64,000 nucleotides of DNA from Sphingopyxis italica. Lineage in GTDB: Bacteria > Pseudomonadota > Alphaproteobacteria > Sphingomonadales > Sphingomonadaceae. The stretch lies in assembly GCF_011926545.1 (NCBI RefSeq), contig NZ_JAATIT010000001.1:529969-593968 (forward strand), given 5' to 3'. The number at the start of each line of letters is the position of its first letter. Position 1 is the stretch's first letter. The notes under the pieces were generated by a model. That model searched no databases and was not told where the DNA came from. It saw only the letters and a program-made list of their open reading frames with translations. A program made the translations under genes and the position numbers. Below, piece after piece: positions 9,679-52,838 of the stretch.

Positions 9679-11313
9679 ATGATCCGTTCTTTGAGGACAA
9701 GCAGCGCGATCGTCGCGCTTTTCGCCGCGAGTGTTGTCATGGCATCGCCGGGGACCGCGCAGCCCGATGGCGGCGCCGACCTGATCCTGCGCGGCGGCAC
9801 CATCTATAGCGGCGAGGCCGCGCCCTTTCGCGGCGACGTCGCGATCCGCGGCGACCGCATCACCTATGTCGGCCCGAAAGCCCCGGGGACCGCGGCGCGG
9901 ACGATCGACGCCACCGGGCTGATCGTCGCGCCCGGCTTCATCGATCCCCATACCCATGTGGGCGAGGCGCTTGCCTCCTCCGATCCCGCCGCGCGGCTTG
10001 TCCTCCCCTTTTTGACGCAGGGCGTCACCACCGCCTTCATCGGCGTCGATGGCGGCGGCGATCCCGATATCGCCCGTATCTTCGGCACCGCAAAGGCTGG
10101 CGCGGGCGGCGAAGGCGAAGCGGGGCTGGGTCAGTCGACGCGCGACTTCGGGATCAATTTCGCCGCTTATGTGGGCCTCGGCGCGGTGCGTGCGAAAGTC
10201 GTCGGCGCCGCCGACCGCGCGCCGACGCCCGCCGAACTCGGCGAGATGACCGGCCTGGTCGACAAGGCGATGTGCGACGGCGCGCTCGGCCTTTCGACCG
10301 GGCTCTTCTATGCCCCGCAAAGCTTCGCCAAGCGGGGCGAAGTGGTCGCGCTCGCCAAGGCCGCGGCGGCGAAGGGCGGCATCTACGACAGCCATTTGCG
10401 CGACGAATCGAGCTATACGATCGGCCTGACCGCCGCCGTCGACGAAGCCCTGTCGATCGGCCGCGACGCGAACATTCCCGTGCATATCGCGCATATCAAG
10501 GCGCTCGGCGTCGATGTCCACGGTCAGGCTCAAGCCGTGATCGCGCAGATCGAAAAGGCGCAAAAGGCCGGACAGATCGTCCACGCCGACCAATATCCCT
10601 GGTCGGCATCGGGCACCGGCCTGTCGGCCGCGCTGCTCCCGCGCTGGGCGCAGGACGGTGGGCGCGCGGCGATGCTGAAGCGTTTCGACGATAGCGCGGC
10701 GATGGCGCGGATGCGGCCCGAGATCGCCGAAAATCTGCGCCGCCGCGGCGGCCCCGCATCGCTGCTGATCACCTCGGGTCCGGGCGGAACCGAGAACAAG
10801 ACGCTCGAAGACGTCGCCAAGGAGCGCAGCGTCGATCCGGTCGATGCCGCGATCGCGATACTCCGCCAGCGCGAGGCCGGGGTCGCCTCGTTCAACCAGA
10901 CCGAGCCCGACATCGCCGCCTTTATGACGCGTCCGTGGGTCGTCACCAGTTCGGACGCCTCGCGCGGCCACCCGCGCTACTACGCCTCCTACGCGCGCAA
11001 ATATGCGACCTATGTGAAGGACAAGCGGGTGCTCGACCTTCGCAGCTTCATCGCGCAGAGCACGGCGGTCCCCGCGCGGCTGTTCGGGCTGGAGGGACGC
11101 GGCGAGCTCAAGGCCGGCGCCTTCGCCGACGTCATCGCCTTCGATCCCGCGACCTTCGCGCCGCGCGCCGACTATGCGCATCCCGCGCTCTTTTCGACCG
11201 GGATGCGCTTCGTGCTCGTCAACGGGGTGCTCGCGCTCGAGAATGGCGAGCCGACGGGCGCCGCGGGCGGGACGCCGCTGCCGCGCACACCGGCGGCGGG
11301 CAGCTGCACATAA
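9679..11313 (+). CDS. Exported N-acyl-D-amino-acid deacylase family amidohydrolase (copy 1)
   Basis: 544-aa metal-dependent amidohydrolase of the D-aminoacylase group. Signal peptide to about residue 28 (PGTAQ), HTH metal motif at residues 91-93 in FIDPHTHVGE, later His ligands in DSHLRDES and HIAHIK, and the catalytic Asp region VVTSSDASRGHPR. The family removes N-acyl groups from D-amino acids. The signal peptide puts the activity in the periplasm. AAAAAAGGGGAG precedes the ATG, 38 bp after dgcA, so it is probably in one operon with dgcNA. A second, diverged copy lies at 14249, on the other side of the TBDR. Exact substrate (N-acyl-D-Glu, D-Asp or peptide-like) cannot be told from sequence. 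Confidence 0.85.
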   Translation: MIRSLRTSSAIVALFAASVVMASPGTAQPDGGADLILRGGTIYSGEAAPFRGDVAIRGDRITYVGPKAPGTAARTIDATGLIVAPGFIDPHTHVGEALASSDPAARLVLPFLTQGVTTAFIGVDGGGDPDIARIFGTAKAGAGGEGEAGLGQSTRDFGINFAAYVGLGAVRAKVVGAADRAPTPAELGEMTGLVDKAMCDGALGLSTGLFYAPQSFAKRGEVVALAKAAAAKGGIYDSHLRDESSYTIGLTAAVDEALSIGRDANIPVHIAHIKALGVDVHGQAQAVIAQIEKAQKAGQIVHADQYPWSASGTGLSAALLPRWAQDGGRAAMLKRFDDSAAMARMRPEIAENLRRRGGPASLLITSGPGGTENKTLEDVAKERSVDPVDAAIAILRQREAGVASFNQTEPDIAAFMTRPWVVTSSDASRGHPRYYASYARKYATYVKDKRVLDLRSFIAQSTAVPARLFGLEGRGELKAGAFADVIAFDPATFAPRADYAHPALFSTGMRFVLVNGVLALENGEPTGAAGGTPLPRTPAAGSCT

Positions 11314-11393
11314 TTCAGGGAAATGCGCCGGCCGCGCCGGCGGAACGGAGGCGTCCTTCACGCGAAACAAACAGATAAAAAAGGGGAAGACAG

Positions 11394-14234
11394 ATGACCA
11401 GATCAATGCCGATCGTATCGACCACGGCGCTCGCCACCGCGCTGCTTTGGAGCGCACCCGCGCTGGCGCAGGACGCGGCCGACGCATCCGCCGCGCCGCC
11501 CGCACCCGCCGCCGAAACTTATTCCGACGCGGCGATCACCGTCACCGGCAGCCGCATCCAGCGCGACGGTTTCCGCGCCCCGACCCCGCTCACCGTGCTC
11601 AATGCCGAGGATATCGAAAGCTCCGCGCCGGCGAACATCGCCGACTATGTCAACGACATCCCCTCGCTCGTCGGCAGCGTCACGCCGGCCAGCTCGAACC
11701 TCAACATCAGCGCGGGCACCGCCGGGGTCAACGCGCTCAACCTGCGCGCGCTCGGCACCGCGCGCACGCTCGTGCTGCTCGACGGCCAGCGTTCGGTCGG
11801 ATCGACGATGACCGGGCTGGTCGACGTGAACACTTTTCCGCAAGGCCTGATCAAGAGCGTCGAGATCGTCACCGGCGGCGCATCGGCGGCTTATGGCTCC
11901 GACGCCGTGTCGGGCGTCGTCAACTTCATCCTCGACAAGGATTATACGGGGATCAAGGGATCGGCCGAATATGGCATCACCACCTATGGCGACGCGCCCA
12001 ATTATCGCGCGACGCTGACCGCGGGCACCGCCTTCGCGGGCGGGCGCGGGCATTTGCTGCTCAACGGCGAGATCGCGATCAAGGACGGGCTGCACAGCGT
12101 GCCGCGCGACTGGAACCAGCAGGGCTGGTACATGATCCGCAACCCCGCGTATGTGGCGGGCAACGGCGCGCCTGAACGGCTCGTCGTGTCGGGCGCGGGG
12201 CTCAGCCTCGCGACCCCCGGCGGGATCATCACCGATACGGCGCTGCGCGGCACCGTTTTCGGGCGCGACGGCGCGGTCGGCCAGTTCGATTATGGCACCG
12301 TGCGCAACCCGTGGATGATCGGCGGCGACTGGGAATCGACGCAGGTGAACAGTTTCCAGTCGCTCGACCCCGCTGAAAACCGCAAGAGCCTGTTCGGGCG
12401 CCTCAGCTTCGAAGTCTCCGACGGGCTCAACCTCTTCGTCCAGGCCTCCTATGCCAAGTCGAAGAATCGCGGGAACCTCGGCATCCAGCTCAACCAGGGG
12501 AATGTCACGATCCAATCGGACAATGCCTTCCTGCCGCAATCGGTGCGCGACGAGCTGGCGCTGCGGGGTATCGACGAGTTCAAGCTGGGCACCACCAACG
12601 CCAATCTGCCGGTCCGCAAGAATGATACGCGGCGCGAACTGCAACGCTACGTCGTCGGCGCCAACGGCGAGTTCGACCTTTTCGGATCGAGCGCGCGCTG
12701 GGACGTCTATTATCAGAAGGGGATCAGCCGCACGCGCGAAATGGCGCGCGACATCAGCAACAATGCGCGCCTCGCGCTCGCGCAGGACGCGGTGTTCGCC
12801 CCTGCCGGCAATTCACTCGGCGTGGCCGAGGGCACGATCGTCTGCCGCTCGTCGCTCACCAGCCCCGACAATGGCTGCGTGCCCTTCAACCGCATCGGCA
12901 TCGGCACCGCGAGCCAGGAGGGGCTGGACTATGTGCTCGGCAACCCGTTCCGCAACCAGAAATTCCAGCAGGATGTGTTCGCCGCCAACCTGTCGTTCGA
13001 CGCCTTCGAGCTGCCCGCCGGCCCGGTATCGGTGGCGATCGGCGGCGAGCACCGGCGCGAGAAAGTGTCGGGCGACGTGGCCGAAGAATTCCAGACCGGC
13101 TGGTTCGTCGGCAATTTCCTGCCCAGCTTCGGCTCCTACAATGTCAGCGAGGCCTATCTCGAGCTCGCGGTGCCGGTGTTCGATGGGCTCGACCTCAACG
13201 GCGCGGTGCGCGCCACCGACTATTCGACCTCGGGCTATGTCACGACGTGGAAGGCGGGGCTGACCTGGGAACCGGTTCCCGACATCCGCTTCCGCGCGAC
13301 GCGATCGCGCGACATTCGCGCGCCCAATCTGGGCGAATTGTTCACCGCCGGCTCGACGCGCATCAACGTGTTGCTCGACCCGACGCAGAACAATGCCTCG
13401 GTGCAGTTCGCCGGAACAACGCGCGGCAATCCGCTGCTCGACCCCGAAAAGGCCGACCAATGGGGCGTCGGCGTCGTGCTGCGGCCGCGCTTCATCCCCG
13501 GCTTCGCGCTGTCGGCCGACTATTATGACATCAAGATCAAGAATGCGATCGGCACCGTCCCGGCGCAAAAGATCGTCGATCGCTGCGCCCAAGGCGTGCA
13601 GGCCTTTTGCGCGGCGGTCGTGCGCGGACCCAATGATTTCGACAACGATCTGCAGGTCTTCGAAACCCCGTTCAACTTCGCGGTCCAGCGCGCGACGGGG
13701 ATCGATTTCGAGGGGTCGTATCGGATGCCGATCGGCAGCGGCGACCTGACGCTGCGCGCGATGGCGACGCGCTACATCAAGAATTATTTCGACAATGGCA
13801 TCGATGATGCGACCGACACGGTGGGACAGAATGCACCCGGCGGAACGCCCAAGTGGCTGTATCGCGTCCAGGCCAATTGGGCGACCGACGGCTTCAACTT
13901 CAACCTGACGGGGCGCGGCATTTCGAGCGGCGTCTATGACACCAGCTTCGTCGAATGCGCCTCGGGCTGTCCGGCGTCGACCGTCACCAACCCGACGATC
14001 AACGACAATCATATCGCGGGCGCCTTCTATCTCGATACCTCGCTGACCTTCGACGTCGAAATGGCGGGCAAGGAGCTCGAACTTTATCTCGCGGTGAACA
14101 ATTTGCTGAACAAGGATCCGGCGATCGTCGCGCCGGGGCCGGCGGGCAGCGCCTATGCGACGCCGGCGACCAACCAGTCGCTCTATGACCTGCTCGGCCG
14201 GACCTATCGCGTCGGAATTCGCTTCAAGCTGTAA
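11394..14234 (+). CDS. TonB-dependent receptor of the D-amino-acid locus
   Basis: 946-aa outer-membrane receptor: signal peptide (cleavage near ALAQD, residue 25), TonB-box-like AAITVTGSRI at about 48-56, plug domain with the GGASAAYGSDAVSGVVNF motif typical of this subgroup, barrel, and terminal YRVGIRFKL. ATG follows AAAAGGGGAAGACAG. It sits between two exported D-aminoacylase-like enzymes and downstream of dgcNA. The likely ligand is therefore an N-acylated or peptide-bound D-amino-acid compound, for example peptidoglycan or poly-glutamate fragments; this is inferred from context alone. 14 bp separate it from the next amidohydrolase, indicating one transcript. Confidence 0.94.
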   Translation: MTRSMPIVSTTALATALLWSAPALAQDAADASAAPPAPAAETYSDAAITVTGSRIQRDGFRAPTPLTVLNAEDIESSAPANIADYVNDIPSLVGSVTPASSNLNISAGTAGVNALNLRALGTARTLVLLDGQRSVGSTMTGLVDVNTFPQGLIKSVEIVTGGASAAYGSDAVSGVVNFILDKDYTGIKGSAEYGITTYGDAPNYRATLTAGTAFAGGRGHLLLNGEIAIKDGLHSVPRDWNQQGWYMIRNPAYVAGNGAPERLVVSGAGLSLATPGGIITDTALRGTVFGRDGAVGQFDYGTVRNPWMIGGDWESTQVNSFQSLDPAENRKSLFGRLSFEVSDGLNLFVQASYAKSKNRGNLGIQLNQGNVTIQSDNAFLPQSVRDELALRGIDEFKLGTTNANLPVRKNDTRRELQRYVVGANGEFDLFGSSARWDVYYQKGISRTREMARDISNNARLALAQDAVFAPAGNSLGVAEGTIVCRSSLTSPDNGCVPFNRIGIGTASQEGLDYVLGNPFRNQKFQQDVFAANLSFDAFELPAGPVSVAIGGEHRREKVSGDVAEEFQTGWFVGNFLPSFGSYNVSEAYLELAVPVFDGLDLNGAVRATDYSTSGYVTTWKAGLTWEPVPDIRFRATRSRDIRAPNLGELFTAGSTRINVLLDPTQNNASVQFAGTTRGNPLLDPEKADQWGVGVVLRPRFIPGFALSADYYDIKIKNAIGTVPAQKIVDRCAQGVQAFCAAVVRGPNDFDNDLQVFETPFNFAVQRATGIDFEGSYRMPIGSGDLTLRAMATRYIKNYFDNGIDDATDTVGQNAPGGTPKWLYRVQANWATDGFNFNLTGRGISSGVYDTSFVECASGCPASTVTNPTINDNHIAGAFYLDTSLTFDVEMAGKELELYLAVNNLLNKDPAIVAPGPAGSAYATPATNQSLYDLLGRTYRVGIRFKL

Positions 14235-41886: not shown

Positions 41887-42405
41887 ATGATCAAGAAAGT
41901 CATGCTCGCGGTGTCCACGCTTGCGCTGGCAGCCACCGCAGCCCCTGCCATCGCGCAAGACCAGGACAACGACAACACCACGACCGGCGCCGCTGGCAAC
42001 AACAGCGACACCGTCGTCGTCAACGACCTGATCGACCTGTTCGTCACGGACAATGCCGCCGATACGTTCAACGACAACGACCAGGACAATGACGGCAATG
42101 GATCGCTCAACGGCAACAGCCTGGTTGTCGCGACCCAGACGCTCAGCGCCACCAACACCAACCATGATATGGACGAACTCGTCGATCTGGACGGTGAAGA
42201 CGGCACCGAAACGGCTGTTGGCTACAACAGCGGCAACAACTCGGTGCGCGGCAACGCTTTCGCGGCCTATGCCGGCATCCTGAACTCCGCATGGAACACG
42301 GGCATCAATGCCAACACCCAAGCGGCGACCAACATCGCGGCGAGCGGCACCGTCAGCTTCGGCGACAGCGCGCCCGCCGGCGGTGGCGGTGGCGGCGGCG
42401 ACTGA
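41887..42405 (+). CDS. Exported Asn/Asp/Gly-rich protein, candidate amyloid-type subunit
   Basis: 172-aa protein of no family I can name. Signal peptide MIKKVMLAVSTLALAATAAP (cleavage near AIAQD). The mature part is acidic and very rich in Asn, Asp, Thr, Gly and Ala, with alternating short motifs such as GNNSDTVV, NGNSLVVATQT, NSGNNSVRGN and NTGINANTQAATNIAASG, and ends in GGGGGGGD. No cysteine. The composition and short beta-prone Asn/Gln motifs recall FapB/FapC and curlin-type subunits, but no repeat matches closely. It opens a run of exported proteins with a C39 peptidase and is separated from them by a hairpin that may reduce read-through, as expected for a major subunit. GAGAGGAAG precedes the ATG. 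Confidence 0.7.
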   Translation: MIKKVMLAVSTLALAATAAPAIAQDQDNDNTTTGAAGNNSDTVVVNDLIDLFVTDNAADTFNDNDQDNDGNGSLNGNSLVVATQTLSATNTNHDMDELVDLDGEDGTETAVGYNSGNNSVRGNAFAAYAGILNSAWNTGINANTQAATNIAASGTVSFGDSAPAGGGGGGGD

Positions 42406-42418
42406 TCGGTCCCCCCGG

Positions 42419-42457
42419 ATGGCCGGCCCGGCACCACTGGCGGGCCGGCCATTTCTT
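42419..42457 (+). terminator. Strong hairpin between first and second gene of the Fap-like cluster
   Basis: Perfect 12-bp stem ATGGCCGGCCCG / CGGGCCGGCCAT (42419-42430, 42441-42452) with 10-base loop, followed by a short TTCTTT. It lies 13 bp after the first gene. The T-run is weak, so partial termination (attenuation) or mRNA 3'-end protection is more likely than full stop. Confidence 0.65.
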
Positions 42458-42483
42458 TCCGTTTCGCTTTCGAGGAGCGCATT

Positions 42484-42891
42484 ATGAAACCCCCGATCGT
42501 CCCGGTTCTGCTGGTCATGGCGGGCTTGTCCGTGCCGGTATCGGCCCAACTGCCCCCACCCGATGCGGCGTTGCCCGTCGTGACGGTATCCGCCCCCGCC
42601 GAAGCCCTTGCGATACCGGCGATCCCGGTGCGGCCCGCACGCCAATCGCCGATGCTGAACGACAGCGAACTCGATACGCAACGCGGCGGCCAATCGCTCG
42701 TGATCACCAACCAGACGATGGATTCGATCGTCGCCGGCAATGTGCTCAATGGCGATTACACCGCGGGATCGGTCGCGCTCAGCGATTTCGCCCTGTCGAA
42801 TTTCAACGGTGTCGGCAATCTGCTGATCAACACCGGCGCGCAGGTCAGCGCCCAGAGCGGCATGAACCTGACCATCAACCTCGGCGATTGA
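42484..42891 (+). CDS. Small exported protein with double-glycine motif
   Basis: 135 aa, family not recognised. Signal peptide MKPPIVPVLLVMAGLSVPVS, then a Pro/Ala-rich spacer to residue 55, then LNDSELDTQRGG ending at residue 69, which reads like the double-glycine leader consensus cut by C39 peptidases. The 66 residues after GG are Asn/Gly/Ser-rich (NQTMDSIVAGNVLNGDY, NFNGVGNLLINTGAQVS, MNLTINLGD). The NLLINT-x3-VS segment recurs in the protein at 43630, so the two are probably related. GAGGAG is 6 bases before the ATG. The C39 peptidase follows after 7 bp. Confidence 0.72.
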   Translation: MKPPIVPVLLVMAGLSVPVSAQLPPPDAALPVVTVSAPAEALAIPAIPVRPARQSPMLNDSELDTQRGGQSLVITNQTMDSIVAGNVLNGDYTAGSVALSDFALSNFNGVGNLLINTGAQVSAQSGMNLTINLGD

Positions 42892-42898
42892 ATTCGCC

Positions 42899-43633
42899 GT
42901 GCGGCCCATGCGAGCCTTGATCGCGGGGATGCTGTGCGCCCTCGCCGCGGCGCCCGCCGCCGCCGAGGTCCGGCTGACCGGGCCCGAAACCGGCGGCACC
43001 TACCAGCTTCGGGTGATGACCTGGTGGGACATTCCCTTCCGCTCGGTCATCCGCCAGCGGTATGATTTCAGCTGCGGCTCGGCGGCGCTCGCGACTCTGC
43101 TCACCTATCATTATGGCGCGCCGACCTCCGAAGCGATGCCGTTCCGCGCGATGTGGGAAAAGGGCGACCGCGAAGCGATCCGCAAAGTCGGCTTCTCGAT
43201 GCTCGACATGAAGACCTATCTCGCCTCGCGCGGCTTTCGCGCCGAAGGTTTCCGGATCACCGTCGACCAGCTGAAACTGGTGAAGCGTCCGACCATCGTG
43301 CTGATGGATCTCAAGGGTTTCAAGCATTTCGTCGTGATCAAGGGCGTTCGCGGCGACCGTGTGCTCACCGGCGATTCGGTGCTCGGCCTCAACGAATATT
43401 CGCTCGAGGATTTCGAAAAGCACTGGAACGGCATCGCGCTGGCGATCGTCGAAGGCGGCAAGAAACGCCCGGAATTCAACCTCGCCGGCGACTGGGGTCC
43501 CTGGTCGCAAGCCCCGCTCGAAAAGGACGGCTCGCTCCACGTCTCGGCCGGCGATCTCACCACCCACCTCCCCCCGCAATATCAGCTGACCCCGCAGATC
43601 CTGCTCGATGTGCGCGTCGGCACCGTGAAATGA
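42899..43633 (+). CDS. Periplasmic C39-family peptidase, FapD-like
   Basis: 244-aa exported papain-like protease. Hydrophobic signal (MRALIAGMLCALAAAPAAAEV), then the C39 active-site pattern: Gln53 and Cys59 in RQRYDFSCGSAALATLL, His143 in GFKHFVVIKG, and an Asp in TGDSVLGLNEYS (about residue 159). C39 enzymes cut after Gly-Gly in leader peptides. FapD of the Pseudomonas Fap amyloid system is a stand-alone periplasmic member like this one. Not fused to an ABC transporter, unlike bacteriocin exporters. The GTG at 42899 and ATG at 42908 are both possible starts; neither has a clear Shine-Dalgarno. Stop overlaps the next ATG. Confidence 0.85.
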   Translation: MRPMRALIAGMLCALAAAPAAAEVRLTGPETGGTYQLRVMTWWDIPFRSVIRQRYDFSCGSAALATLLTYHYGAPTSEAMPFRAMWEKGDREAIRKVGFSMLDMKTYLASRGFRAEGFRITVDQLKLVKRPTIVLMDLKGFKHFVVIKGVRGDRVLTGDSVLGLNEYSLEDFEKHWNGIALAIVEGGKKRPEFNLAGDWGPWSQAPLEKDGSLHVSAGDLTTHLPPQYQLTPQILLDVRVGTVK

Positions 43634-44208
43634 GAAAGACCATGTCCCCACGCATCCTCCTGCTCGCCCTCGCGCCCGTGCTCCTCGCGGCAAGCGAGCC
43701 CGGGGATGCCGATCCGCTGGCCGGCGCGCGAACCGTGCCCGACGAGGTGCTGGCCGCACAGCGTGGCGGCTTCGCCTTTCAAGGCATGGTGATCGCCTTT
43801 GGCGCCGACATCCGCAGCTATGTGAACGACGAGCTCGCGCTGCGCACGATCGTCAGCTGGACGCCCGAGGGACAAACGATCGAACGCTTCGTCTCGCCGT
43901 CGCTGACCGCGGTCGACGCGGCGCAGGTGCAGGGCGGCATATTGACCAGCGGCGGCATCTCCATGCGCGTCGGCGACGAGACGGTGTTCCTCGCGAACAA
44001 CGGTCAGACCGCGCTGATCCAAAGCACCGACGCGATCCAGAATGTGCTGATCAACACCGCCAGCAACGTCTCGCTGAACCAGCAGGTCGATGCCGTGCTC
44101 GACATCAGCGGCTATGAAGGCTTCCGCGACGCGCTCGCGACGACCCGGCTCAGCGACGCGATCGGCGCCGTGATGGGCGCCCAGACCGTCGGAGCACTCG
44201 GCAACTAG
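43630..44208 (+). CDS. Exported protein with QRGG motif, FapE-like or second subunit
   Basis: 192 aa, no named family. Short signal sequence (SPRILLLALAPVLLAAS), then VPDEVLAAQRGG ending at about residue 47, the same (D/S)E(L/V)-x3-QRGG pattern as the protein at 42484. The rest is beta-prone (FVSPSLTAVDAAQ, GGISMRVGDETVFLANNGQT) and contains NVLINTASNVSLNQQ, matching the NLLINT-x3-VS segment of the 42484 product. Translationally coupled to the peptidase (ATGA; alternative ATG 43642). A role as processed minor subunit, nucleator or export chaperone is inferred only. A hairpin terminator follows. Confidence 0.7.
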   Translation: MRKTMSPRILLLALAPVLLAASEPGDADPLAGARTVPDEVLAAQRGGFAFQGMVIAFGADIRSYVNDELALRTIVSWTPEGQTIERFVSPSLTAVDAAQVQGGILTSGGISMRVGDETVFLANNGQTALIQSTDAIQNVLINTASNVSLNQQVDAVLDISGYEGFRDALATTRLSDAIGAVMGAQTVGALGN

Positions 44209-44259
44209 GCTCTTTCCGAACGACCCCCCGCCCCCGTTTCGACAGGGACGGTTCACCTG

Positions 44260-44286
44260 GCCCCGCCATCACCGGCGGGGCTTCTT
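44260..44286 (+). terminator. Intrinsic terminator after the Fap-like plus-strand genes
   Basis: GCCCCGCC / GGCGGGGC stem (44260-44267, 44274-44281), ATCACC loop, followed by TTCTTT. It lies 52 bp after the QRGG-protein gene and before the convergent outer-membrane gene. Confidence 0.7.
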
Positions 44287-44310
44287 TCCATGTGGGCTTG
44301 CGGGCTGAGG

Positions 44311-45750
44311 CTATTTGCCGCCGAACGGCATGCGCAGCGTGATCGACACGTCGGGCGCATCCTCGGTCACCCCGATTTCAAAACCAAGGTTGAGCACGTC
44401 GCGCTGGGTCAGCCGGTACGACATGCCGAAATTGAGCGAGCCGACGTGGAGATAGTTGGACTTCTGATGCGTATCGCCGATTTCGGTCTTCGTCGGGAAG
44501 ATATAATTGTGGCGATAGCCGAGCGAGAAGGAAAAGCGCGGGTTGAGGGCAAAGCCGAAGCCGATGTTGGCCGATACCGCGTCGCCCGGGTCGACGCGCC
44601 CGATCAGCACGTCGCCGACCATTTCATTCACGTCGCGCGGGATGTGATAGAGATAGGCCGCGCCGCCATAGATCACCGCGGGATCCGACGGCATCAGGAA
44701 GTTGAGCCCCGGCTGGACGGCCCAGAAACCCGACCCGGTGGCGAGCCCCGTCGCGACCCCGAATTCGTCATAGCCGATCTCGAACGGCCCCTTGCCCGTG
44801 TCCGATTTAACGCGCAACGTCCCGACGAAAATCGGCTTTTGCCCGACCGGCCGGTTGAATTGATAGCGAAGCGAGAATTCGGCGTCGCCGACCCCGTCCT
44901 CGCGCAGCGCGATCTGGCGGACGATGCCTTCGTCGCGCTGCTGCACCACCTCGATCCGGTCGTTGCGATACAGATAGGGCAGCCGCACTTCGGCTTCGAG
45001 GCGGTCGGTGATCCCGTAACGCAGCGACGCGGTGCCGACGAGCGTGTCGCGATCGGCATCGGTCGCCTCGATCAAGCCGATCTGGATGCCGGGGATCAGC
45101 TCGATCCCGCGGAACACGAGTCGATTGGTCGACGAGCGCGTATATTCGAACGAGGGTTCGAAAAAGAGCTCGCCGGCGCGCGTGAGCACGCCTTGCCCCT
45201 CGGGGACCGCCGCGACGCGTTGCTCGGGGGGCTCGCTGGGCGGCGGCGCTTCGCCGACGGGAGCATCGGGCAGCGCGACCGCGTCGCTGCCCGGGCCGGG
45301 AAGCGCGGGTCCGGCGCCGACGCCCTGCCCCCCCAACCCCGTGCCGCGGAAGAGGTCGAGCGGCGCTTCGGCGAGCGCGAAGGAGGACAGCCGGTCGACC
45401 TGCGCCTGCTGGGTCACGATCTGTTGCTGCAACGTCGCGATCTGCTCTCCCTGCTCGGCGATCATGGCGCTCTGCCGGTCGATCAGCGCGCGCTGCTCGG
45501 CGATGATCCGGCGCTGCGCGTCGACCTCGCTCTCGGCGCTCGCGGCGGGCTGGCCCTCGGCCGCGCCCGCCGATGCCAGCGCGGCCGCACGCCACGTCGG
45601 CGCGGTATCGAGGAACGGCAGCGTCTCGCACAGGCATTCGAGTGCCGGCGCTTCATGCGCCCGCGCCTGCGCGGGCATGAAGACGGCCGAGAAACCGGCG
45701 GCCGCAACGCTCAGATGGCGCAGCGCGGGCGGAGCCGATACGATGCTCAT
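44311..45750 (-). CDS. Outer-membrane beta-barrel protein with N-terminal heptad coiled coil, FapF-like
   Basis: 479 aa. Signal peptide to about residue 31 (AQARA). Residues 80-121 form six consecutive heptads (RRIIAEQ, RALIDRQ, SAMIAEQ, GEQIATL, QQQIVTQ, QAQVDRL), a clear coiled coil. A Gly/Pro-rich linker runs to about residue 205, then a roughly 270-residue amphipathic barrel (FEPSFEYTRSSTNRLVF, SLRYGITDRLEAEVRLPYLYRN, LNFGMSYRLTQRD) ends in ITLRMPFGGK. The order signal, coiled coil, linker, barrel is that of FapF, the trimeric amyloid secretion pore; the barrel also resembles the phenol-degradation MetA/'transporter' family often annotated here. ATG overlaps the stop of the Crp-type regulator (ATGA). 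Convergent with the peptidase operon. Confidence 0.8.
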   Translation of the reverse strand: MSIVSAPPALRHLSVAAAGFSAVFMPAQARAHEAPALECLCETLPFLDTAPTWRAAALASAGAAEGQPAASAESEVDAQRRIIAEQRALIDRQSAMIAEQGEQIATLQQQIVTQQAQVDRLSSFALAEAPLDLFRGTGLGGQGVGAGPALPGPGSDAVALPDAPVGEAPPPSEPPEQRVAAVPEGQGVLTRAGELFFEPSFEYTRSSTNRLVFRGIELIPGIQIGLIEATDADRDTLVGTASLRYGITDRLEAEVRLPYLYRNDRIEVVQQRDEGIVRQIALREDGVGDAEFSLRYQFNRPVGQKPIFVGTLRVKSDTGKGPFEIGYDEFGVATGLATGSGFWAVQPGLNFLMPSDPAVIYGGAAYLYHIPRDVNEMVGDVLIGRVDPGDAVSANIGFGFALNPRFSFSLGYRHNYIFPTKTEIGDTHQKSNYLHVGSLNFGMSYRLTQRDVLNLGFEIGVTEDAPDVSITLRMPFGGK

Positions 45751-46427
45751 GCCCCAAGCTCCTGCCCGGCGAAGGGTCGCCGCATCGGCATCGCGCCCAT
45801 CTTGCCGATCGCCACGCCCGCCTCTTCGCCGGCGATCGCGCGCAGCCCGCCCGGATCGAGCAGCCGGCACGATTGCGGCCCGTCGAGCTCGATCAGGCCC
45901 TGGCGGACGAAGCCCGATATGGTACGGCTGACCGTGTGGATCGTCAGCCCCAGATGATCGGCGATGTCGCCGCGCGTCATCGGCAGCGGAACGCTGCCGA
46001 TCGCCGACAAACGCTTCGCCGCGATCAGCAGGAAAGCCGCGACGCGTTCGTTCGCGTTGCGGCGACCGAGCAGGAATATACATTGGTTGGCGCTGTCGAG
46101 CGCACGCTCGAGGGCGCGGTTCTGCCCGGGCGCATCGGGTCCGCCACTCGACGCGGGGCGGCGCGCCAGGACGGCGTTCGTCACGGCTTCGGCCGCCGAA
46201 TCGCGCAAGCCATATTCGACCCCGAACACGTCGCCCTGATAGAAAAAGCCGGTCAGCTGGCGATGCCCGTCGATGTGAAAATGACAGGTTCGAACGGTGC
46301 CGGATATGACTTCGAACCAGCAATCGCCTGGATCGCCCTGCGAAAATATGATTTCGCCCTTACGAAATTTCAGGATGGTATCCTGCGGGATCGCCCCGCC
46401 ACGAACTTCTGCCGACAGACCTTGCAC
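45747..46427 (-). CDS. Crp/Fnr-family regulator without Fe-S cysteines
   Basis: 226-aa protein: cyclic-nucleotide-binding-like beta-roll (KFRKGEIIFSQGDPGDCWFEVISGTVR, residues about 20-48), dimerisation helix, and C-terminal winged helix with DIADHLGLTIHTVSRTISGF (about 155-175), the FixK/FNR-type recognition helix. The N-terminal cysteine cluster of true FNR is absent, so it is not an oxygen-sensing Fe-S FNR. Start is GTG 46427 with TTGGAGACG upstream. Overlaps the outer-membrane barrel gene by 4 bp, so regulator and pore are made together; control of the amyloid-like cluster is an inference. Confidence 0.87.
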   Translation of the reverse strand: MQGLSAEVRGGAIPQDTILKFRKGEIIFSQGDPGDCWFEVISGTVRTCHFHIDGHRQLTGFFYQGDVFGVEYGLRDSAAEAVTNAVLARRPASSGGPDAPGQNRALERALDSANQCIFLLGRRNANERVAAFLLIAAKRLSAIGSVPLPMTRGDIADHLGLTIHTVSRTISGFVRQGLIELDGPQSCRLLDPGGLRAIAGEEAGVAIGKMGAMPMRRPFAGQELGA

Positions 46428-46785
46428 GCCACGTCTCCAATCTAGAATTGGTATTTGCGGCGACCCCGTTTGCGAGTCTCATCTGCCTTTGCGGGCCGTG
46501 AATCCATCCGGGTAAAGACCTAGGAATTCGTGTGTAGCAATGGCTTAGATGAATCACTTACGTATAATTCCTTAGCATTTTCGGGGAATATACAATTGGA
46601 TTTCAGCGCCATAGCTGTGTCGGCCTCTTTAGCGCGGTCAGATGCTTAATTAGTTTACGTTAATTGCTAAACAGCGCGCAAAGAGATATGCTGCCCGCCA
46701 GAGCAGGTGGGTTGCGGCGTTGCCGCGCAAAAGATGCTCGTCGGTCGCAAAGAGTCCACGCCTTGGGTGTCAGGGGAATTGCACC
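46428..46785. other. AT-rich intergenic region between two divergent regulator genes
   Basis: 358 bp without a credible gene and with visibly lower GC than its surroundings. It holds the dyad CCAAT-CTAGA-ATTGG (46437-46451) next to the Crp-type start and AATTA-N8-TAATT (46648-46665) upstream of the LuxR-type gene, both possible regulator sites. Promoters of both regulators must lie here. Confidence 0.5.
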
Positions 46786-47052
46786 GTGCATCATAACGCT
46801 TTGAACGTCGAACCGCATTTGACCTTTCGTGAACATCAAATATTGGAATTGGTCGCCGTCGGCTGCTCGGCCAAGCAGATCGCGCTTGAGATCAATATCG
46901 CGCCGCGCACCGTCGAGCGGCATATCGAAAATGTGCGCCTCAAACTCAACGCGCGCAACCGCGCACACCTGATCACCCAGGCGATGCACCTCGGCCTGCT
47001 CGTCATCGAAACCCCGCCCCCCGACGAGCCGACGCTCTTCGAACTCAAATGA
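46786..47052 (+). CDS. Small LuxR-type HTH regulator (DNA-binding domain only)
   Basis: 88-aa protein that is little more than a GerE/LuxR helix-turn-helix: LTFREHQILELVAVGCSAKQ followed by IALEINIAPRTVERHIENVRLKLNARNRAHLITQA. No receiver or autoinducer domain. GTG 46786 is the best start (CAGGGGA 6-10 bases upstream); the longer frame from TTG 46720 is Arg/Cys-rich and unlikely. It is divergent from the Crp-type gene and could co-regulate the Fap-like cluster or the SulP gene 176 bp downstream. Partner and signal unknown. Confidence 0.8.
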   Translation: MHHNALNVEPHLTFREHQILELVAVGCSAKQIALEINIAPRTVERHIENVRLKLNARNRAHLITQAMHLGLLVIETPPPDEPTLFELK

Positions 47053-47228: not shown

Positions 47229-48725
47229 ATGTTCGACGGACTGACCGCCTACCGCCAGCAATGGTTCGCCGGCGCCGCGACCGCGCGCACCGACATTCTC
47301 GCCGGCATCGTCGTCGCGCTCGCGCTCATCCCCGAGGCGATCGGCTTTTCCATCATCGCCGGAGTCGACCCGCGCGTCGGCCTCTATGCCTCAATCGCGA
47401 TCGCGATCGTCATATCCTTCACCGGCGGCCGGCCCGGGATGATCTCGGCGGCGACCGCCGCGGTCGCCGTGCTGGTCATCCCGCTCGTCCGCGAACATGG
47501 CGTCGAATATCTCTTCGCCGCGACGATCCTGATGGGCATCATCCAGATTATCGCCGGCCTGCTGCGCCTCGACCTCGTCATGCAGTTCGTGTCGCGCTCG
47601 GTGATCACGGGGTTCGTCAACGCGCTCGCCATCCTCATCTTCATGGCGCAGCTGCCGCAGCTCATCGATGTGACGTGGCATGCCTATGCGATGGTCGCGG
47701 GCGGGCTCGCGATCATCTACCTGTTGCCGCGCCTGACCAAAGCGGTGCCCTCGCCGCTTATCGCCATCCTGGTCCTGTCGGCGATCGGCATCGGCTTCGG
47801 CCTGCCGGTGAACACCGTCGGCGACATGGGCAAGCTGCCCGAGGGTCTTCCGAGCCTCGTCCTGCCGAACGTCCCGCTGACGCTGGATACGCTGCGGATC
47901 ATCCTGCCCTATTCGCTGACGATGGCCGCGGTGGGCCTGCTCGAATCGCTGCTGACCGCGCAGATCGTCGACGATATGACGCACAGCGACAGCGACAAGC
48001 GCCGCGAATGCGCCGGCCAGGGCACCGCCAACATCGCCGCCGCGTTCGTCGGCGGCATGGGCGGCTGCGCGATGATCGGCCAGTCGGTGATCAATGTGAC
48101 CTCGGGCGGCCGCACGCGGCTGTCGACCTTCACCGCCGGCGCGACGCTGCTGATCCTGCTCGCACTGCTCGGGCCCTATGTCGGCCGGATGCCGATGCCC
48201 GCGCTCGTGGCGGTTATGATCATGGTGTCGATCGGCACCTTCAGTTGGAATTCGATCGCGAATCTGCGCCGCCATCCGCCGACCTCGTCGATCGTGATGG
48301 TGACGACTGTCGTGGTTGTCGTCGCGACGCACGATCTCTCGCTCGGCGTGCTGGCGGGCGTGCTGCTATCGGGGATATTCTTCGCCGCCAAGGTCCAGCG
48401 CATGTTCGAGGTGCGACGCGACGTCAGCCCCGACGGAATGCGGGCGACCTATTTCGTGACCGGCCAGATCTTCTTCGCCTCGGTCGACCGCTTCACGCGG
48501 AGCTTTCAGGTCGATGAAGCCGCGCCCGCCATCCTCATCGACGTGTCGGCCGCCCATTTCTGGGACATTTCGGGCGTCGGCGCGCTCGACAAAATCATCG
48601 CGCGCCTGCGCCGCGAGGGCCGCACGGTCGAAGTCGTCGGCTACAATCGCGCCAGTGCCGACATCGTCGACAGGTTCGCGCTGCACGACAAGACGGGTTT
48701 CGAGCTGGGAGCGGTACCGCACTGA
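47229..48725 (+). CDS. SulP-family anion transporter with STAS domain
   Basis: 498-aa inner-membrane transporter. N-terminal membrane domain with the SulP signature [24 protein letters not shown]-type segment at about 25-48 and about 11-12 hydrophobic helices, then a cytoplasmic STAS domain from about residue 400 ([26 protein letters not shown]). SulP proteins carry sulfate, bicarbonate or C4-dicarboxylates. Given several sulfatases in the window, sulfate is tempting, but nothing in the sequence decides it. Monocistronic by spacing. Confidence 0.92.
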
Positions 48726-48957: not shown

Positions 48958-49524
48958 ATGCGTGACGGCGGGCTTGTCCAGTTGCTCGATGAATTGCGGC
49001 CCGCACTCTTGCGCTTCCTCATCGCGCGCGGGGCGCGGCCCGACGAAGCCGAAGACATTCTGCAGGATGTTCAGGTCAAATTGCTCGCCGAACGGATCGG
49101 ACCCGTCGCACAGCAGCGCGCCTATCTCTATAGCATGACCAACAACCAGTTCCTCATGCACCGCCGGACCACCGGACGCCGTGCGCGCCGCGAGGAAGAC
49201 TGGGCCGACGTCAACGGCGGCGGAAGCCGGGAAGCCGACGAACGGCCGTCGATCGAAACGGAGCTCATCGCCAAAGAGCAACTCGCAGCGCTTCAGCGCG
49301 TCATCGATGCGTTGCCCGCGCGGAGCCGGTTCATCTTCAAACGTTTCCGGATCGACGGTGAGCCGCAGCGCCGGATCGCGGAGGAATTGCAGATCAGCGT
49401 GAGCGCCGTCGAGAAGCACCTCGCGCGCGTCTATGATGCGATCACCTCGGCGCGGCAACGCTGGGATGAGGATCGTCTCGATCGGCGGCATCTCGAGGGG
49501 GAGAGAAACCGCCATGTCACTTGA
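48958..49524 (+). CDS. ECF sigma factor, FecI-like
   Basis: 188-aa sigma-70 family factor. Region 2 (RPALLRFLIARGARPDEAED, ILQDVQVKLL, then RAYLYSMTNNQFLMHRR) and region 4 (LPARSRFIFKRFRIDGEPQRR, then IAEELQISVSAVEKHLARVY). The EDILQDVQ and SAVEKHL patterns place it with iron-starvation/FecI-type ECF factors of cell-surface signalling. Followed with an 11-bp overlap by a FecR anti-sigma gene and then an STN-containing TBDR, the complete Fec-type relay. GGGGACGAAG precedes the ATG. Confidence 0.92.
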   Translation: MRDGGLVQLLDELRPALLRFLIARGARPDEAEDILQDVQVKLLAERIGPVAQQRAYLYSMTNNQFLMHRRTTGRRARREEDWADVNGGGSREADERPSIETELIAKEQLAALQRVIDALPARSRFIFKRFRIDGEPQRRIAEELQISVSAVEKHLARVYDAITSARQRWDEDRLDRRHLEGERNRHVT

Positions 49525-50491
49525 TACTCCAGATCGCGTCCGGGCGCGCGCCATCGAATGGCATATCAGGCTGCGCGACGGCGATGACGCCACCTGGGAG
49601 GCCTTTGCCGAGTGGATCGCCGCCGACCCGCGCCACGCCTCGGCCTATGACCAGGTCGAAGCGGCCGACCACGCGCTCGATCCGCTGCTGCCCGAAGTGG
49701 TCGTTCGGGAAGCCGCCAACGATATGGACGAAACCGAACAGGGCGACGAGGGGGGCTACGCGCCACCGCCGCGCCGTTGGCGCCGGGGTTTGGCGGGCGG
49801 TGCGATCGCGGCATCGATCGCCGCCGTCCTGCTGCTGGTGCAGGGGTCGGACTCGAGCCGCTATCAGGTCACGACCGCGCCCGGCGAACGGCAGGTCATC
49901 ACGCTCGATGCGTCGACCAGGGTCACCCTCAACGGCGGCACGCGCATGACCTTCGACCGCAAAGATCCGCGCTATGCCTCGCTGGCCTCGGGCGAAGCCT
50001 ATTTCCAGGTCCGTCACGACGCGGCGAATCCCTTCCGCGTCGAGGTCGGCGGCAATATCGTCGAGGATGCCGGGACGATTTTCAACGTCGTGCGCGAGGA
50101 TGACGAGGTTCGCGTCGCGGTCGCCGAAGGCAAGGTCGTCTACAATCCGGGATCGCGCGCAGTGGCACTCGATGCCGGACAGGCGCTCGTGGACCGGCGC
50201 GGCGCCACGCGGGTGAGCCGGGTGCCGGCCGCGGTGGTCGGATCCTGGAAGACGGGCACGCTCGTGTACGACGCGGCGCCGCTCGCGCGCGTCGCCGCGG
50301 ATCTCAGCCGCGTGCTCGACGAACCCGTCGCTTCCGCGCCTTCGGTCGCCGGCAGGCCCTTTACGGGCACGATCACCCTCGACGGCAGCGGCTCCGCGCA
50401 ATTCGCGCGGCTCGGCGCGGCGCTTGGCGTCGCCATCGAAAAGCGCGAGGGACGATGGATCATGGGGCCGGCGGGCAGTGCCCGGCCGTAG
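49514..50491 (+). CDS. FecR-family anti-sigma/sigma regulator
   Basis: 325-aa single-pass inner-membrane protein. Cytoplasmic N-terminal DUF4880-type domain (AIEWHIRLRDGDDATWEAFAEWIAADPRH, residues about 13-41, written here as its two conserved halves AIEWHIRLRDGD and WIAADPRHASAYD), transmembrane helix at about 93-110, and periplasmic FecR domain (TAPGERQVITLDASTRVTLN, FDRKDPRYASLASGEAYF, EDAGTIFNV). It transmits receptor occupancy to the ECF factor. Start at 49514 has GGGGGAGAGAAACC upstream. Its 3' end overlaps the receptor gene by 14 bp. Confidence 0.92.
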   Translation: MSLDTPDRVRARAIEWHIRLRDGDDATWEAFAEWIAADPRHASAYDQVEAADHALDPLLPEVVVREAANDMDETEQGDEGGYAPPPRRWRRGLAGGAIAASIAAVLLLVQGSDSSRYQVTTAPGERQVITLDASTRVTLNGGTRMTFDRKDPRYASLASGEAYFQVRHDAANPFRVEVGGNIVEDAGTIFNVVREDDEVRVAVAEGKVVYNPGSRAVALDAGQALVDRRGATRVSRVPAAVVGSWKTGTLVYDAAPLARVAADLSRVLDEPVASAPSVAGRPFTGTITLDGSGSAQFARLGAALGVAIEKREGRWIMGPAGSARP

Positions 50492-52838
50492 CTGGGCTGC
50501 CGCCGCCGCCGCGCTTGTCGCCCTTGCCGCCGCGCCGCCGGCCGAGGCGCGATCGTTCGACATCGCGCCGGGTCCGCTCGGCGAAGTGATCGCGGCGATC
50601 GGCGTGCAGGCGCGGATCACCATCGCGATACTCGATCCCGAACTCGCATCGCACCGTTCGCCCGGAGTCAAAGGCGATGTTTCGGTTCGCGCCGCGCTCG
50701 ACCGGGCGTTGCGCGGGACGGGAGCGGAGGCCGTCTTCTACGACCGCGCGACCGTTCGCATCATTCGTTCCAGGCCGCGGCCGAAGCCGTCGCCACGCCC
50801 GAAGCCGCGGCCGCCCAAGCTCCCCGCCACCGAGGCGCCGCCCGTCGAGATCATCGTCTCCGCGACCAAACAGACGATGCACCTCGACAATTTTCCGGGT
50901 ACGGCGAAGATTATCGACCTCGAAGCCGGACGGCTTGCGCGAAAGGCGGGCGATGGCACCGCCGCCATCGCGGCTCTTCAGCCGACGCTGACCACGACCA
51001 ATCTCGGCCGCGGCCGCAACAAACTTTTTGTGCGCGGCATTGCCGACAGCAGTTTCAACGGGCCCACGCAAGCGACCGTGGGCCAGTATCTCGGGGACGT
51101 CCGGCTTACCTACAATGCGCCCGACCCCGACCTCAACCTGTACGACCTCGAACGGGTCGAGATTCTCGCCGGCCCCCAGGGTACGCTTTACGGGGCCGGC
51201 TCGATCGGGGGAATCGTACGGCTCGTTCCGAACACCCCCGACAGCACCGCCGCTTATGCCTCGGCATCGGCCGGGCTGAGCGCGACGCGCTTCGGCGGCA
51301 TCGGCGGCGACGCGGCCGCCATGGCGAACCTGCCCATCCTGAAAGGGCAAGCGGCCGTGCGTCTCGTCGTGCATGGCGGCCGCGATGCGGGCTATATCGA
51401 CGACCCGTCGCGCGGCCTTCGCGACATCAACAGCGGCCGGAATTTCGGACAGCGCCTCCTCGTTCGCATCGACGACATCGCTGGTTGGACGATCGATCTC
51501 GGCGGTGTCCATCATCGCGTCGAGACCGACGACGGCCAATATCTGATCCGCGGGCAGCCGCCGCTGACGCGAAGCAACCCGATCGCGCAACCTTTCGGCA
51601 GCCGTTTCCAGCTGGCTTATCTGACCGCACGGCGGCCGATCGGCGCGACCGAGCTGGTTTCGACAAGCTCGGTCGTCTGGCAGGATATGGAATCGGCTTT
51701 CGACGCGACCGGTTCGGACGGTACGAGCGCGCCCCTTCTTTTCCGGGAACGCAACGACATCACCTTCTGGTCGCACGAAACGCGGCTCGCGGGCGGGGGC
51801 ACGCGGATGCCATGGGTGGCGGGGCTGGCGGGCGTCTATAATATCAACCGCCTCACGCGCTCGCTCGGACCGCCCGACGCGCCGCGGCAAATCACCGGGG
51901 TCCGCAACCGGCAGCTCGACCTCTCGCTCTATGGACAGGCGACCCTGCCCCTTACGCGGTCGCTCGACCTGATGATGGGCGGGCGGTTCGCCCTGGGCAA
52001 CGGCGGCGGTCGCCTGCTGGGCGAAAATGCGGACGAGTCCTCGCTCTCCTCCAAGACGCATTTCAAATTTTCGGCGACGGTCGCGCTGGACTGGCGTCTC
52101 AGCCCGTCGCTCTCGCTCTATTCCAATTATCAGGAGGGATTTCGGGCGGGCGGGCTCGCCATCGCGCCTGCGGGATCCGCCACCGACAGCCAGGAATTCG
52201 TAAGCGACGAATTGTCGCAGATCGAGATCGGCGCGCGCTGGCGGGACAAGGACCGTGACGGTTTCTCGGCCCGCGCCGCCATCTTCAGGGTCGACTGGAA
52301 CAATATCCAGGCCGACCTCGTCGATACGGCCGGCCTGCCCTATACCGCCAATATCGGCAATGGCCTCGTCTATGGCCTCGATGGCGAACTCAATTGGCGC
52401 GTTTCGAAGGCGCTGGCGCTGACCGTCTCCGCATTCCTCAACGAAAGCTATCTCTACGACGCGCCGGCCGAGTTCGCGAATCCCGACCGCAACACGCTTC
52501 CCAACATCCCCACCGATGGCGTGCGGCTCGGCGCCGAATGGCGCCTGCCGCTCGGACGCGGGATCGACCTCTCGGGCGACGCTTCGCTCCGTTATGTCGG
52601 CCGATCGAACCTTGGCGCGGGCCCCTCGCTCGACGTCACGCAGGGCGATTATTATGTCGGCGATGTCGGCGCTCGCCTGGACTTTTCGCGGTTCGGCCTG
52701 TCGCTCGATATCAGCAATATCGCCGACACGCGTGCCAACACCTTCGCTTTCGGCAATCCCTTTGGCCTGGCGCGCGAAGACCAGATCACGCCCCTGCGGC
52801 CGCGAACCGTGCGCCTCGGGATCGATACCCGCTTCTGA
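50478..52838 (+). CDS. TonB-dependent transducer with STN domain, FecA-like
   Basis: 786-aa receptor read from GTG 50478, which yields a good signal peptide (WAAAAAALVALAAAPPAEA). Next comes a secretin/TonB N-terminal (STN) signalling domain (FDIAPGPLGEVIAAIGVQAR to about residue 95), a striking Pro/Arg/Lys-rich linker (RPRPKPSPRPKPRPPK), TonB-box-like VEIIVSATKQ, plug (LFVRGIADSSFNGPTQATV, GPQGTLYGAGSIGGIVRLV) and barrel ending in RTVRLGIDTRF. The STN domain plus upstream fecI/fecR genes mean it both imports a ligand and induces its own expression. Ligand may be a siderophore or another complex nutrient; no biosynthetic hint nearby. Confidence 0.92.
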   Translation: MPGRSWAAAAAALVALAAAPPAEARSFDIAPGPLGEVIAAIGVQARITIAILDPELASHRSPGVKGDVSVRAALDRALRGTGAEAVFYDRATVRIIRSRPRPKPSPRPKPRPPKLPATEAPPVEIIVSATKQTMHLDNFPGTAKIIDLEAGRLARKAGDGTAAIAALQPTLTTTNLGRGRNKLFVRGIADSSFNGPTQATVGQYLGDVRLTYNAPDPDLNLYDLERVEILAGPQGTLYGAGSIGGIVRLVPNTPDSTAAYASASAGLSATRFGGIGGDAAAMANLPILKGQAAVRLVVHGGRDAGYIDDPSRGLRDINSGRNFGQRLLVRIDDIAGWTIDLGGVHHRVETDDGQYLIRGQPPLTRSNPIAQPFGSRFQLAYLTARRPIGATELVSTSSVVWQDMESAFDATGSDGTSAPLLFRERNDITFWSHETRLAGGGTRMPWVAGLAGVYNINRLTRSLGPPDAPRQITGVRNRQLDLSLYGQATLPLTRSLDLMMGGRFALGNGGGRLLGENADESSLSSKTHFKFSATVALDWRLSPSLSLYSNYQEGFRAGGLAIAPAGSATDSQEFVSDELSQIEIGARWRDKDRDGFSARAAIFRVDWNNIQADLVDTAGLPYTANIGNGLVYGLDGELNWRVSKALALTVSAFLNESYLYDAPAEFANPDRNTLPNIPTDGVRLGAEWRLPLGRGIDLSGDASLRYVGRSNLGAGPSLDVTQGDYYVGDVGARLDFSRFGLSLDISNIADTRANTFAFGNPFGLAREDQITPLRPRTVRLGIDTRF

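Follow-up and report, generated by a model that had tools for sequence, protein, structure and literature searches.

A probable one-repeat, Fap-like secretion locus with second, double-glycine-type leaders in Sphingopyxis italica

Does a sphingomonad gene cluster that resembles the Pseudomonas Fap functional-amyloid system in its list of components encode a fap operon or a relative of it? We examined the locus that raises this question, at positions 41887 to 46427 of a 64,000-nucleotide stretch of Sphingopyxis italica (contig NZ_JAATIT010000001.1, positions 529,969 to 593,968 of the forward strand; here called the window). A first-pass annotation had placed five exported proteins in one locus and likened them to Fap, and their coordinates and strands are as it described. 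The locus is real and conserved, and the evidence below supports a Fap-like but non-Fap secretion locus. We think it probable that it encodes a one-repeat Fap-like secretion system, in which a C39 peptidase would remove second leaders in the periplasm and the trimmed cargo would be exported with P0001 to build a fibre or matrix. P0001, P0002, P0003 and P0007, on the plus strand, face P0004 and P0005 on the minus strand, with P0006 behind; signal peptides of all five exported proteins were judged by eye. The features are listed here by position (aa, amino acids; HMM, hidden Markov model).

41887..42405, plus strand: P0001, exported Asn/Asp/Gly-rich candidate subunit of 172 aa, with homologues in loci L033-L041
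42238..42348, plus strand: putative single Fap-type repeat module ("NTG module") of P0001 (module HMM 2.8e-14, own family; limits by eye)
42484..42891, plus strand: P0002, exported small protein with a second leader, then a 66-aa predicted mature part
42655..42690, plus strand: P0002 leader of the double-glycine type, LNDSELDTQRGG, with cleavage predicted behind 42690
42769..42888, plus strand: putative single Fap-type repeat module of P0002 (module HMM 4.4e-5; limits by eye)
42899..43633, plus strand: P0003, free-standing FapD-like C39 peptidase with signal peptide and Q53/C59/H143/D159
43630..44208, plus strand: P0007, FapE-like exported protein with a second leader, then a 145-aa predicted mature part
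43735..43770, plus strand: P0007 leader of the double-glycine type, VPDEVLAAQRGG, with cleavage predicted behind 43770
44311..45750, minus strand: P0004, FapF-like outer-membrane pore with coiled coil (aa 70-126), linker and barrel (aa 195-478)
45340..45375, minus strand: weak leader-like motif LAEAPLDLFRGT at aa 126-137 of P0004, in the linker at the coiled-coil end before the barrel
45747..46427, minus strand: P0005, Crp/FixK-type regulator (Pfam HTH_Crp_2 and cNMP_binding), with a homologue in L033-L039 and L041

P0003 belongs to Pfam Peptidase_C39 (1.4e-16). The comparison with the FapD HMM that the first-pass annotation had suggested gave a divided answer: FapD (NF058616) is the top NCBIfam model of P0003 (7e-47; second, FilB, 1.3e-28), and its 159.6 bits, though the highest among all models, fall far below the curated cut-off of 330. 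As the annotation had read it, P0003 is an exported (signal peptide by eye), free-standing C39 protein with intact catalytic residues, like FapD; C59, H143 and D159, together with Q53, are invariant across 49 aligned sequences (48 of the 79 listed homologues were used). A structure model predicted from 49 sequences (predicted local distance difference test, pLDDT, 81.5; predicted template-modeling score, pTM, 0.71) matched ComA (1e-8) and 6mpz (4.2e-7; template-modeling score, TM, 0.80 by target length; 2.0 A), a double-glycine protease with bound leader peptide.

For P0004, the top NCBIfam model is FapF (NF058560; 1.6e-35), with 122.8 bits and a curated cut-off of 700 not reached, and a sequence search of the PDB found the solved FapF 5o67 (1.2e-29). 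Its predicted model (56 sequences, 55 of the 72 listed homologues having been used in the alignment; pLDDT 77.1, pTM 0.60) shows the N-terminal coiled coil, a low-confidence linker and a barrel of FapF fold, in line with the coiled-coil and beta-barrel outer-membrane protein described earlier. The structure comparison that had been proposed returned FapF first (5.8e-22, TM 0.81 by target length), with a COG4313 channel next (4.1e-11).

What would such a peptidase act on? Two small proteins had been noted for a QRGG motif, which stands at aa 66-69 of P0002 and aa 44-47 of P0007 and to which no role had been given. Judged from the sequences, QRGG is most likely the end of a double-glycine leader, the type of site cut by C39 peptidases. 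The consensus of C39 double-glycine substrates has hydrophobic residues at -12 and -7 and Gly-Gly at -2/-1. Behind the signal peptide, the motif found here has L or V at -12, L at -7, R at -3 and G at -2 and -1, and D and E are frequent at -10 and -8, respectively; the leader positions of P0002 and P0007 agree with that consensus. Cleavage after the second residue of GG or GA is described for C39 substrates (PMC10233263). No second leader was seen in P0001, and a PDB search with the P0002 leader stretch gave no match.

The motif recurs across related loci. A first leader matrix, built from 20 leaders of ten loci and set against 2720 other open reading frames (ORFs), left 99.9% of the background below 16.2 bits, with leaders outside the training set scoring up to 31.5 bits; the top five background ORFs comprised three locus members lost by the neighbour rule (L120, L058, L115) and two pores (L121, L035). 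The counts given here for downstream leaders, the second matrix, the fixed pattern, the C39 tree, ORFs rich in N/G/S/T/D and module copies rest on 89 representative loci, thinned from 140 at below 70% C39 identity. In 71 of these 89, the ORF just downstream of the C39 gene contains [LIVMACT]....[LIVM]...RG[GKR][FY], the -1 residue being G in 61, K in 6 and R in 4. A second matrix, trained solely on downstream leaders of the representative loci, scored at least 10 bits in an upstream ORF of 40/88 loci, where shuffles predict 0.35, and within the N-terminal part of 15/81 pores (0.5 expected), with controls at 2/89 for C39 proteins (0.5 expected) and 0/81 for pore C-terminal parts (0.35 expected). 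The fixed pattern gave 26/88 for upstream ORFs (2.86 expected) and 19/81 for pore N-terminal parts (1.34 expected) versus 0/81 for C-terminal parts (3.48 expected). A single locus of Cupriavidus metallidurans CH34 encodes three proteins with the motif, which reads VDSESLARKRGG in the pore and VASSKLDDVRGG and VAQARLEESRGG in the other two.

At L071:5474-5854 (plus strand) and L072:5379-5831 (plus strand), divergent C39 loci in which a FapE-type gene was not seen, the upstream exported protein has a leader of the AG type (LDDVQLDALTAG and LSDSDLDRVTAG, respectively). The canonical Fap locus L115 encodes, at a long distance upstream (10909-11550, minus strand), an exported ORF with the leader LDDQVLSRQRGG.

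P0001 had been taken for an Asn/Asp/Gly-rich candidate subunit, and from aa 24 onward it is indeed 42.3% N+D+G. Its family and that of P0002 share homology in the part that follows the leader (hhalign 94.7%, E 5.9e-8), and by profile comparison each protein appears to hold one copy of a module remotely related to the Fap repeat. An HMM of this module (about 37 residues, 46 copies from non-canonical loci) was run on the ORFs of canonical Fap loci. It matched seven FapB-type ORFs (E 6e-4, 7e-4, 0.0098, 0.014, 0.03, 0.069 and 0.27; ORFs identified by place and repeats rather than by a curated model) and no other ORF at E up to 1; in L104, three FapB repeats align with it in register. With the HMM reversed, no ORF matched at E up to 1; among 15 column shuffles, the best value was 0.075 and the next 0.65. 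A module ORF is present in 63/77 non-canonical representatives, with two in 43 of those 63. There are 114 such ORFs (73 outside the training set), of which 111 show a single copy at the chosen threshold. Of the 114, 97 are found upstream of the C39 gene at a distance of at most 4.5 kb, 17 lie elsewhere, and none is encoded on its opposite strand. ORFs rich in N/G/S/T/D were found upstream in 50/84 loci, downstream in 1/88 and on the other strand in 0/89.

The P0001 homologues L039:7292-8701 (minus strand) and L036:4451-5419 (plus strand), frames of 470 and 323 aa, are lengthened by Asn/Asp/Ser-rich repeats before a constant C-terminal module. In the same family as the window, L066:5411-7700 (minus strand) encodes a cargo that is rich in Fap repeats (Fap-repeat HMM 0.0046) and has a GG leader, LSDEELSTKRGG followed by Y. 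This locus is a possible link or intermediate between canonical and GG-leader systems.

Is the association more than chance? The gene-neighbourhood survey that had been called for found it kept across Sphingomonadales. The C39 protein occurs in 42/296 Sphingomonadales genomes; the pore is found in 39 and relatives of P0007 in 11, all within those 42. P0003, P0004 and P0007 were sought in whole genomes, and P0001, P0002 and P0007 relatives in the fetched loci, which cover 40 of the 43 C39 matches (the window itself, G100 and G264 were left out). Because a barrel gene accompanies the C39 gene inside the fetched stretch in 39 of these 40 loci, and P0001, P0002, P0007 and barrel homologues are all present in 9 (L033-L041), the locus is more than a chance arrangement; a Crp-type gene is found in 8 of the 9. 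The C39 protein of the window matches five loci at 90-93% identity (four Sphingopyxis, one Sphingomonadaceae). Its distribution in the genus is patchy: of 16 genomes drawn, 3 contain a C39 match, which in G088 (locus L059) belongs to a canonical Fap locus.

The first-pass annotation had described Fap as known mainly outside Alphaproteobacteria, a statement that needs care. An ORF with three Fap repeats is present in 13/40 loci (L056, L058-L065, L067-L070), all of the window's own family; in the remaining 27/40 and in the window, no ORF with two or more Fap repeats was found by pattern, although the HMM picks up weaker repeats in L066, which belongs to these 27. FapF model matches were found in 15 of 385 genomes of the class at 1e-15. 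Among 398 genomes of the phylum there were 33 at 1e-20, 7 of them over the curated cut-off (36 matches were listed in this search and 20 regions fetched). For one locus set, 572 confirmed stretches were cut down to the best 80, which gave 79 loci. A 2013 survey gave Fap as restricted to Beta-, Gamma- and Deltaproteobacteria (PMC3792158). Since a later survey reported it in many Pseudomonadota families (PMC12822426), we do not claim that Fap in this family is new.

How, then, does the locus relate to canonical Fap? For comparison we used 26 canonical loci: the 13 three-repeat Sphingomonadales loci and L103-L115, whose FapF scores are at least 343 bits (the repeat pattern misses the FapC of four, L103 and L105-L107). 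In Pseudomonas and other canonical operons, FapE starts with LKDAEMADLRGR followed by FVMPGRIISFGI, or similar. On the C39 strand, 26/26 loci have this element, as RG[KR] in 23, HGK in 2 and TGK in 1, with F or Y after each. The P0007 family (10 sequences) aligns with FapE of 18 canonical loci (hhalign 89.4%, E 2e-6 for one comparison) over 33 columns, which are the leader plus 21. Full-length homology of P0007 to FapE is not supported; no similarity extends past these columns.

The leader signal may thus point to a probable cut site of FapD in Pseudomonas FapE and, because relatives keep the canonical leader, this site can be stated to the residue. FapE alone among Fap proteins showed complete N-terminal processing by mass spectrometry in Pseudomonas, and the catalytic cysteine of FapD was needed for secretion of FapC, which C38A abolished (PMC5557850). 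That paper (Rouse 2017) called the FapD target unclear and pointed to GG/GA motifs in FapE; the site proposed here is instead RG[KR] before [FY] near the FapE start. A 2025 review goes no further than to give FapD a presumed role in processing the N-terminus of FapE and the periplasmic region of FapF (PMC12822426), and a 2023 paper words FapD as modifying FapC, without a site (PMC10638192). Searches of the open PMC subset showed us neither a FapD cut site in FapE at RG[KR] nor these leaders, and we found there no printed account of a leader that several partners have in common, of the module in single copy or of the link to FapE.

FapA-position genes of L103, L104, L105, L107, L112 and L113 carry a leader-like L.D.D[IFY]....SG stretch (Pseudomonas-type ELSDxDIxxIxSG). 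FapA was dropped as a further FapD substrate, and its processing is not claimed, because published mapping saw FapA-D peptides across the whole sequence (PMC5557850). None was recognised in the window by the ORF list or family scans, in which no FapA model was run; FapA is often missing from true fap operons (PMC3792158).

From the homologies, the motif, the predicted folds and the co-inheritance, we infer cleavage, its order, pore passage, secretion and fibre formation as follows. All five proteins would cross the inner membrane by Sec-type signals, as read from the sequences. In the periplasm, P0003 would cut P0002 after aa 69 and the FapE-like P0007 after aa 47, which would rid each of its second leader, and it might also cleave the P0004 linker that joins coiled coil and barrel. 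P0001, which is Asn/Asp/Gly-rich and would stay uncut, would leave through the FapF-like pore together with the trimmed proteins, and these would build a fibre or matrix at the surface, with P0001 and P0002 acting through their single Fap-type repeat module.

Several observations weigh against this scheme. Compared with whole FapB/C alignments, the P0001 and P0002 families were negative (hhalign 1.6% and 3.1%), a focused module-to-repeat comparison reached only 19%, and an HMM of single Fap repeats found nothing in the window proteins. The gene upstream of FapD in canonical Fap is FapC, without such a leader, and P0003 does not fall within the branch of canonical FapD. Once the leader is removed, no similarity between the P0007 and FapE families can be detected (hhalign 0.3%). 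The first matrix gives the leaders of canonical FapE 5.7 to 22.7 bits, most of them below the 16.2-bit background mark; these leaders rest on place and alignment. About 70 FapE residues without peptides exceed what the RG[KR] site alone explains. At a looser 6 bits, the C39 control was also raised (7/89 versus 2.45 expected), and the upstream leaders could share ancestry with the downstream ones instead of having arisen independently. In the pore, LAEAPLDLFRGT fits the fixed pattern and scores 7.1 bits with one matrix, and the best value with the downstream-leader matrix is only 3.1; no leader-like motif was seen in Pseudomonas FapF. Pore cleavage as a general rule was dropped, because Pseudomonas and many other pores lack the motif.

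Could the locus be a true Fap functional-amyloid operon, merely diverged and with FapA lost? The best matches to FapD and FapF, the FapE-like start, the order kept as far as E and the remote repeat module all speak for this. The C39 tree (89 rows, midpoint root, no outgroup) speaks against it: canonical Fap rows form one 12-row branch (support 97/98), and the window peptidase stands in a separate 22-row branch of Caulobacteraceae, Hyphomonadaceae and Sphingomonadales rows (100/99). Ten of the 12 rows were labelled by repeats and two are the Pseudomonas-group L103 and L109; because the label rule missed these two, three label changes were counted on the tree. One long row, L165, is faulty, and L044 and L165 each gave a poor C39 extract in one step. 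Grouping with non-Fap C39 peptidases, which the first-pass annotation had named as grounds for giving up its Fap reading, is thus partly what we found, in the form of an alphaproteobacterial branch outside the canonical one. Moreover, the window and 27/40 sister loci have no ORF with at least two Fap repeats by pattern, versus three in the other 13, and the -1 residue is Gly here versus Lys or Arg in canonical FapE. FapB and FapC have three imperfect repeats each (PMC12822426). Because no FapA was recognised, no three-repeat FapB/C was found, scores lie below cut-offs and the peptidase falls outside the FapD clade, we do not regard this as a canonical fap operon, and simple divergence is quite unlikely. 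What stands of the original component list is the FapD- and FapF-type partners (by sequence and fold), the FapE-like start of P0007 and a single remote repeat module in P0001 and P0002; its equation with a Fap operon does not.

A double-glycine peptide system, with microcin-like or autolysis peptides that use a FapD/FapF pair, has a precedent in the Neisseria nap island, which has GG peptides, a C39 peptidase, a FapF homologue and proposed periplasmic cleavage (PMC11798529), and the 66-aa predicted mature part of P0002 would suit it. Set against it are the Asn/Asp/Gly-rich cargo, its module in common with FapB-type proteins and the one-sided placement of N/G/S/T/D-rich ORFs upstream of the C39 gene, and we find it very unlikely. 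That RG[G/K/R] is a docking element for pore or peptidase and the C39 protein a chaperone is unlikely, too: some C39-like domains are chaperones that do not cut (PMC6173800), and -1 varies among G, K and R, but none of the four residues Cys, His, Asp and Gln varies among the 49 sequences and C38A in Pseudomonas FapD abolishes FapC secretion. An ordinary solute porin beside an unrelated peptidase, already disfavoured, is barely conceivable. Pfam assigns P0004 to Phenol_MetA_deg, exactly at the cut-off, and FapF has been likened to COG4313 uptake channels (PMC6173800); against this, the best solved fold is FapF rather than COG4313, and all 39 pore genomes have the C39 gene.

Beyond the one-repeat secretion system that we favour for this locus, and with clearly less confidence, we offer a wider and quite possible reading. 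A large, mostly unnamed family would combine Sec export with a periplasmic GG leader, its one C39 peptidase reading a 12-residue code in up to three partners (an upstream subunit, a FapE-type protein and the linker of its own pore), and cutting would mature the cargo and reset the gate. Pseudomonas Fap would be a derived branch in which the repeat was tripled, GG became GK or GR, and FapD cuts FapE at RG[K/R] before [F/Y]. Such a cut could not be told from a tryptic one by trypsin mapping, since RGR before Y is also tryptic. The proposed FapE site, stated to the residue, is testable with one mutant; Fap would be placed within a wider set of loci that have a C39 peptidase, a FapF-type pore and second leaders; and single-repeat subunits would be simple models for the Fap repeat.

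At the level of gene layout, P0003/P0007 and P0005/P0004 overlap by 4 bases each, the latter both on the minus strand; the first-pass annotation had noted the coupling of the pore gene to a Crp-type regulator. Its claim of a rearranged gene order holds for the F-like gene alone, which lies on the opposite strand; the two subunit-like genes, D and E keep the Fap order. Separation of fapF from the operon is a known variant (PMC3792158). In all seven genes, third codon positions change more than the other two (versus L033, L123 and L131; for P0006, 92/110 aa aligned in two of these). A promoter and terminator scan gave nothing exceeding chance. One further gene is of uncertain membership:

46720..47052, plus strand: P0006, small LuxR-type helix-turn-helix regulator (Pfam GerE 1e-16)

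Homologues of P0006 at E < 1e-20 occur in L033, L035, L036, L037 and L041 and in the canonical Fap locus L068. Farther along, by eye and from the ORF list only, window positions 48958-52838 hold consecutive ORFs resembling an extracytoplasmic function sigma factor, FecR and a TonB receptor, adjoined by a SulP-type transporter (47229-48725). Plasmids of about 6 kb from E. coli, Avibacterium and Acinetobacter (NZ_CP051731.1, NC_005245.1 and NZ_CP114260.1) have an annotated C39 peptidase matching P0003, and in an Acinetobacter baumannii record, L202:5291-6154 (plus strand), a stop codon splits the C39 (filB) frame in two.

Among known systems, Pseudomonas Fap (fapABCDEF) resembles the locus in its C39 peptidase with signal peptide, its FapF-type coiled-coil pore, a FapE-like start with a leader-like RG element, subunit-like genes upstream of the peptidase and, remotely, the repeat module. 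In contrast, the window has no recognised FapA, one module copy instead of three, Gly rather than Lys or Arg at -1, a second leader also on the upstream subunit, an inverted pore gene joined to a Crp-type gene and a peptidase outside the FapD branch. The Neisseria nap island (NapP, NapF, NapA-C), compared by description rather than sequence, likewise encodes GG-motif proteins at one locus with a C39 peptidase and a homologue of FapF, but its products are small cationic peptides implicated in autolysis (PMC11798529). Because this island and FapD-FapF neighbours in five further phyla, noted in 2018 (PMC6173800), are already described, the class as such is not new. FilB and FilC of the Acinetobacter fil operon (FilA-F) are the second-best NCBIfam matches of P0003 and P0004, and in one record the signal of FilA is followed by a leader-like MDDAALSAATGQ; however, the scores lie below those for FapD and FapF, and by eye the N-terminal part of the presumed FilC ORF in that record has no such RG motif. 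Peptidase-containing ATP-binding cassette exporters (ComA, PCAT1 and similar) have the C39 fold, the catalytic residues and a double-glycine-type substrate motif in common with P0003, but their C39 domains are embedded in the exporter, whereas P0003 is free-standing and has a signal peptide.

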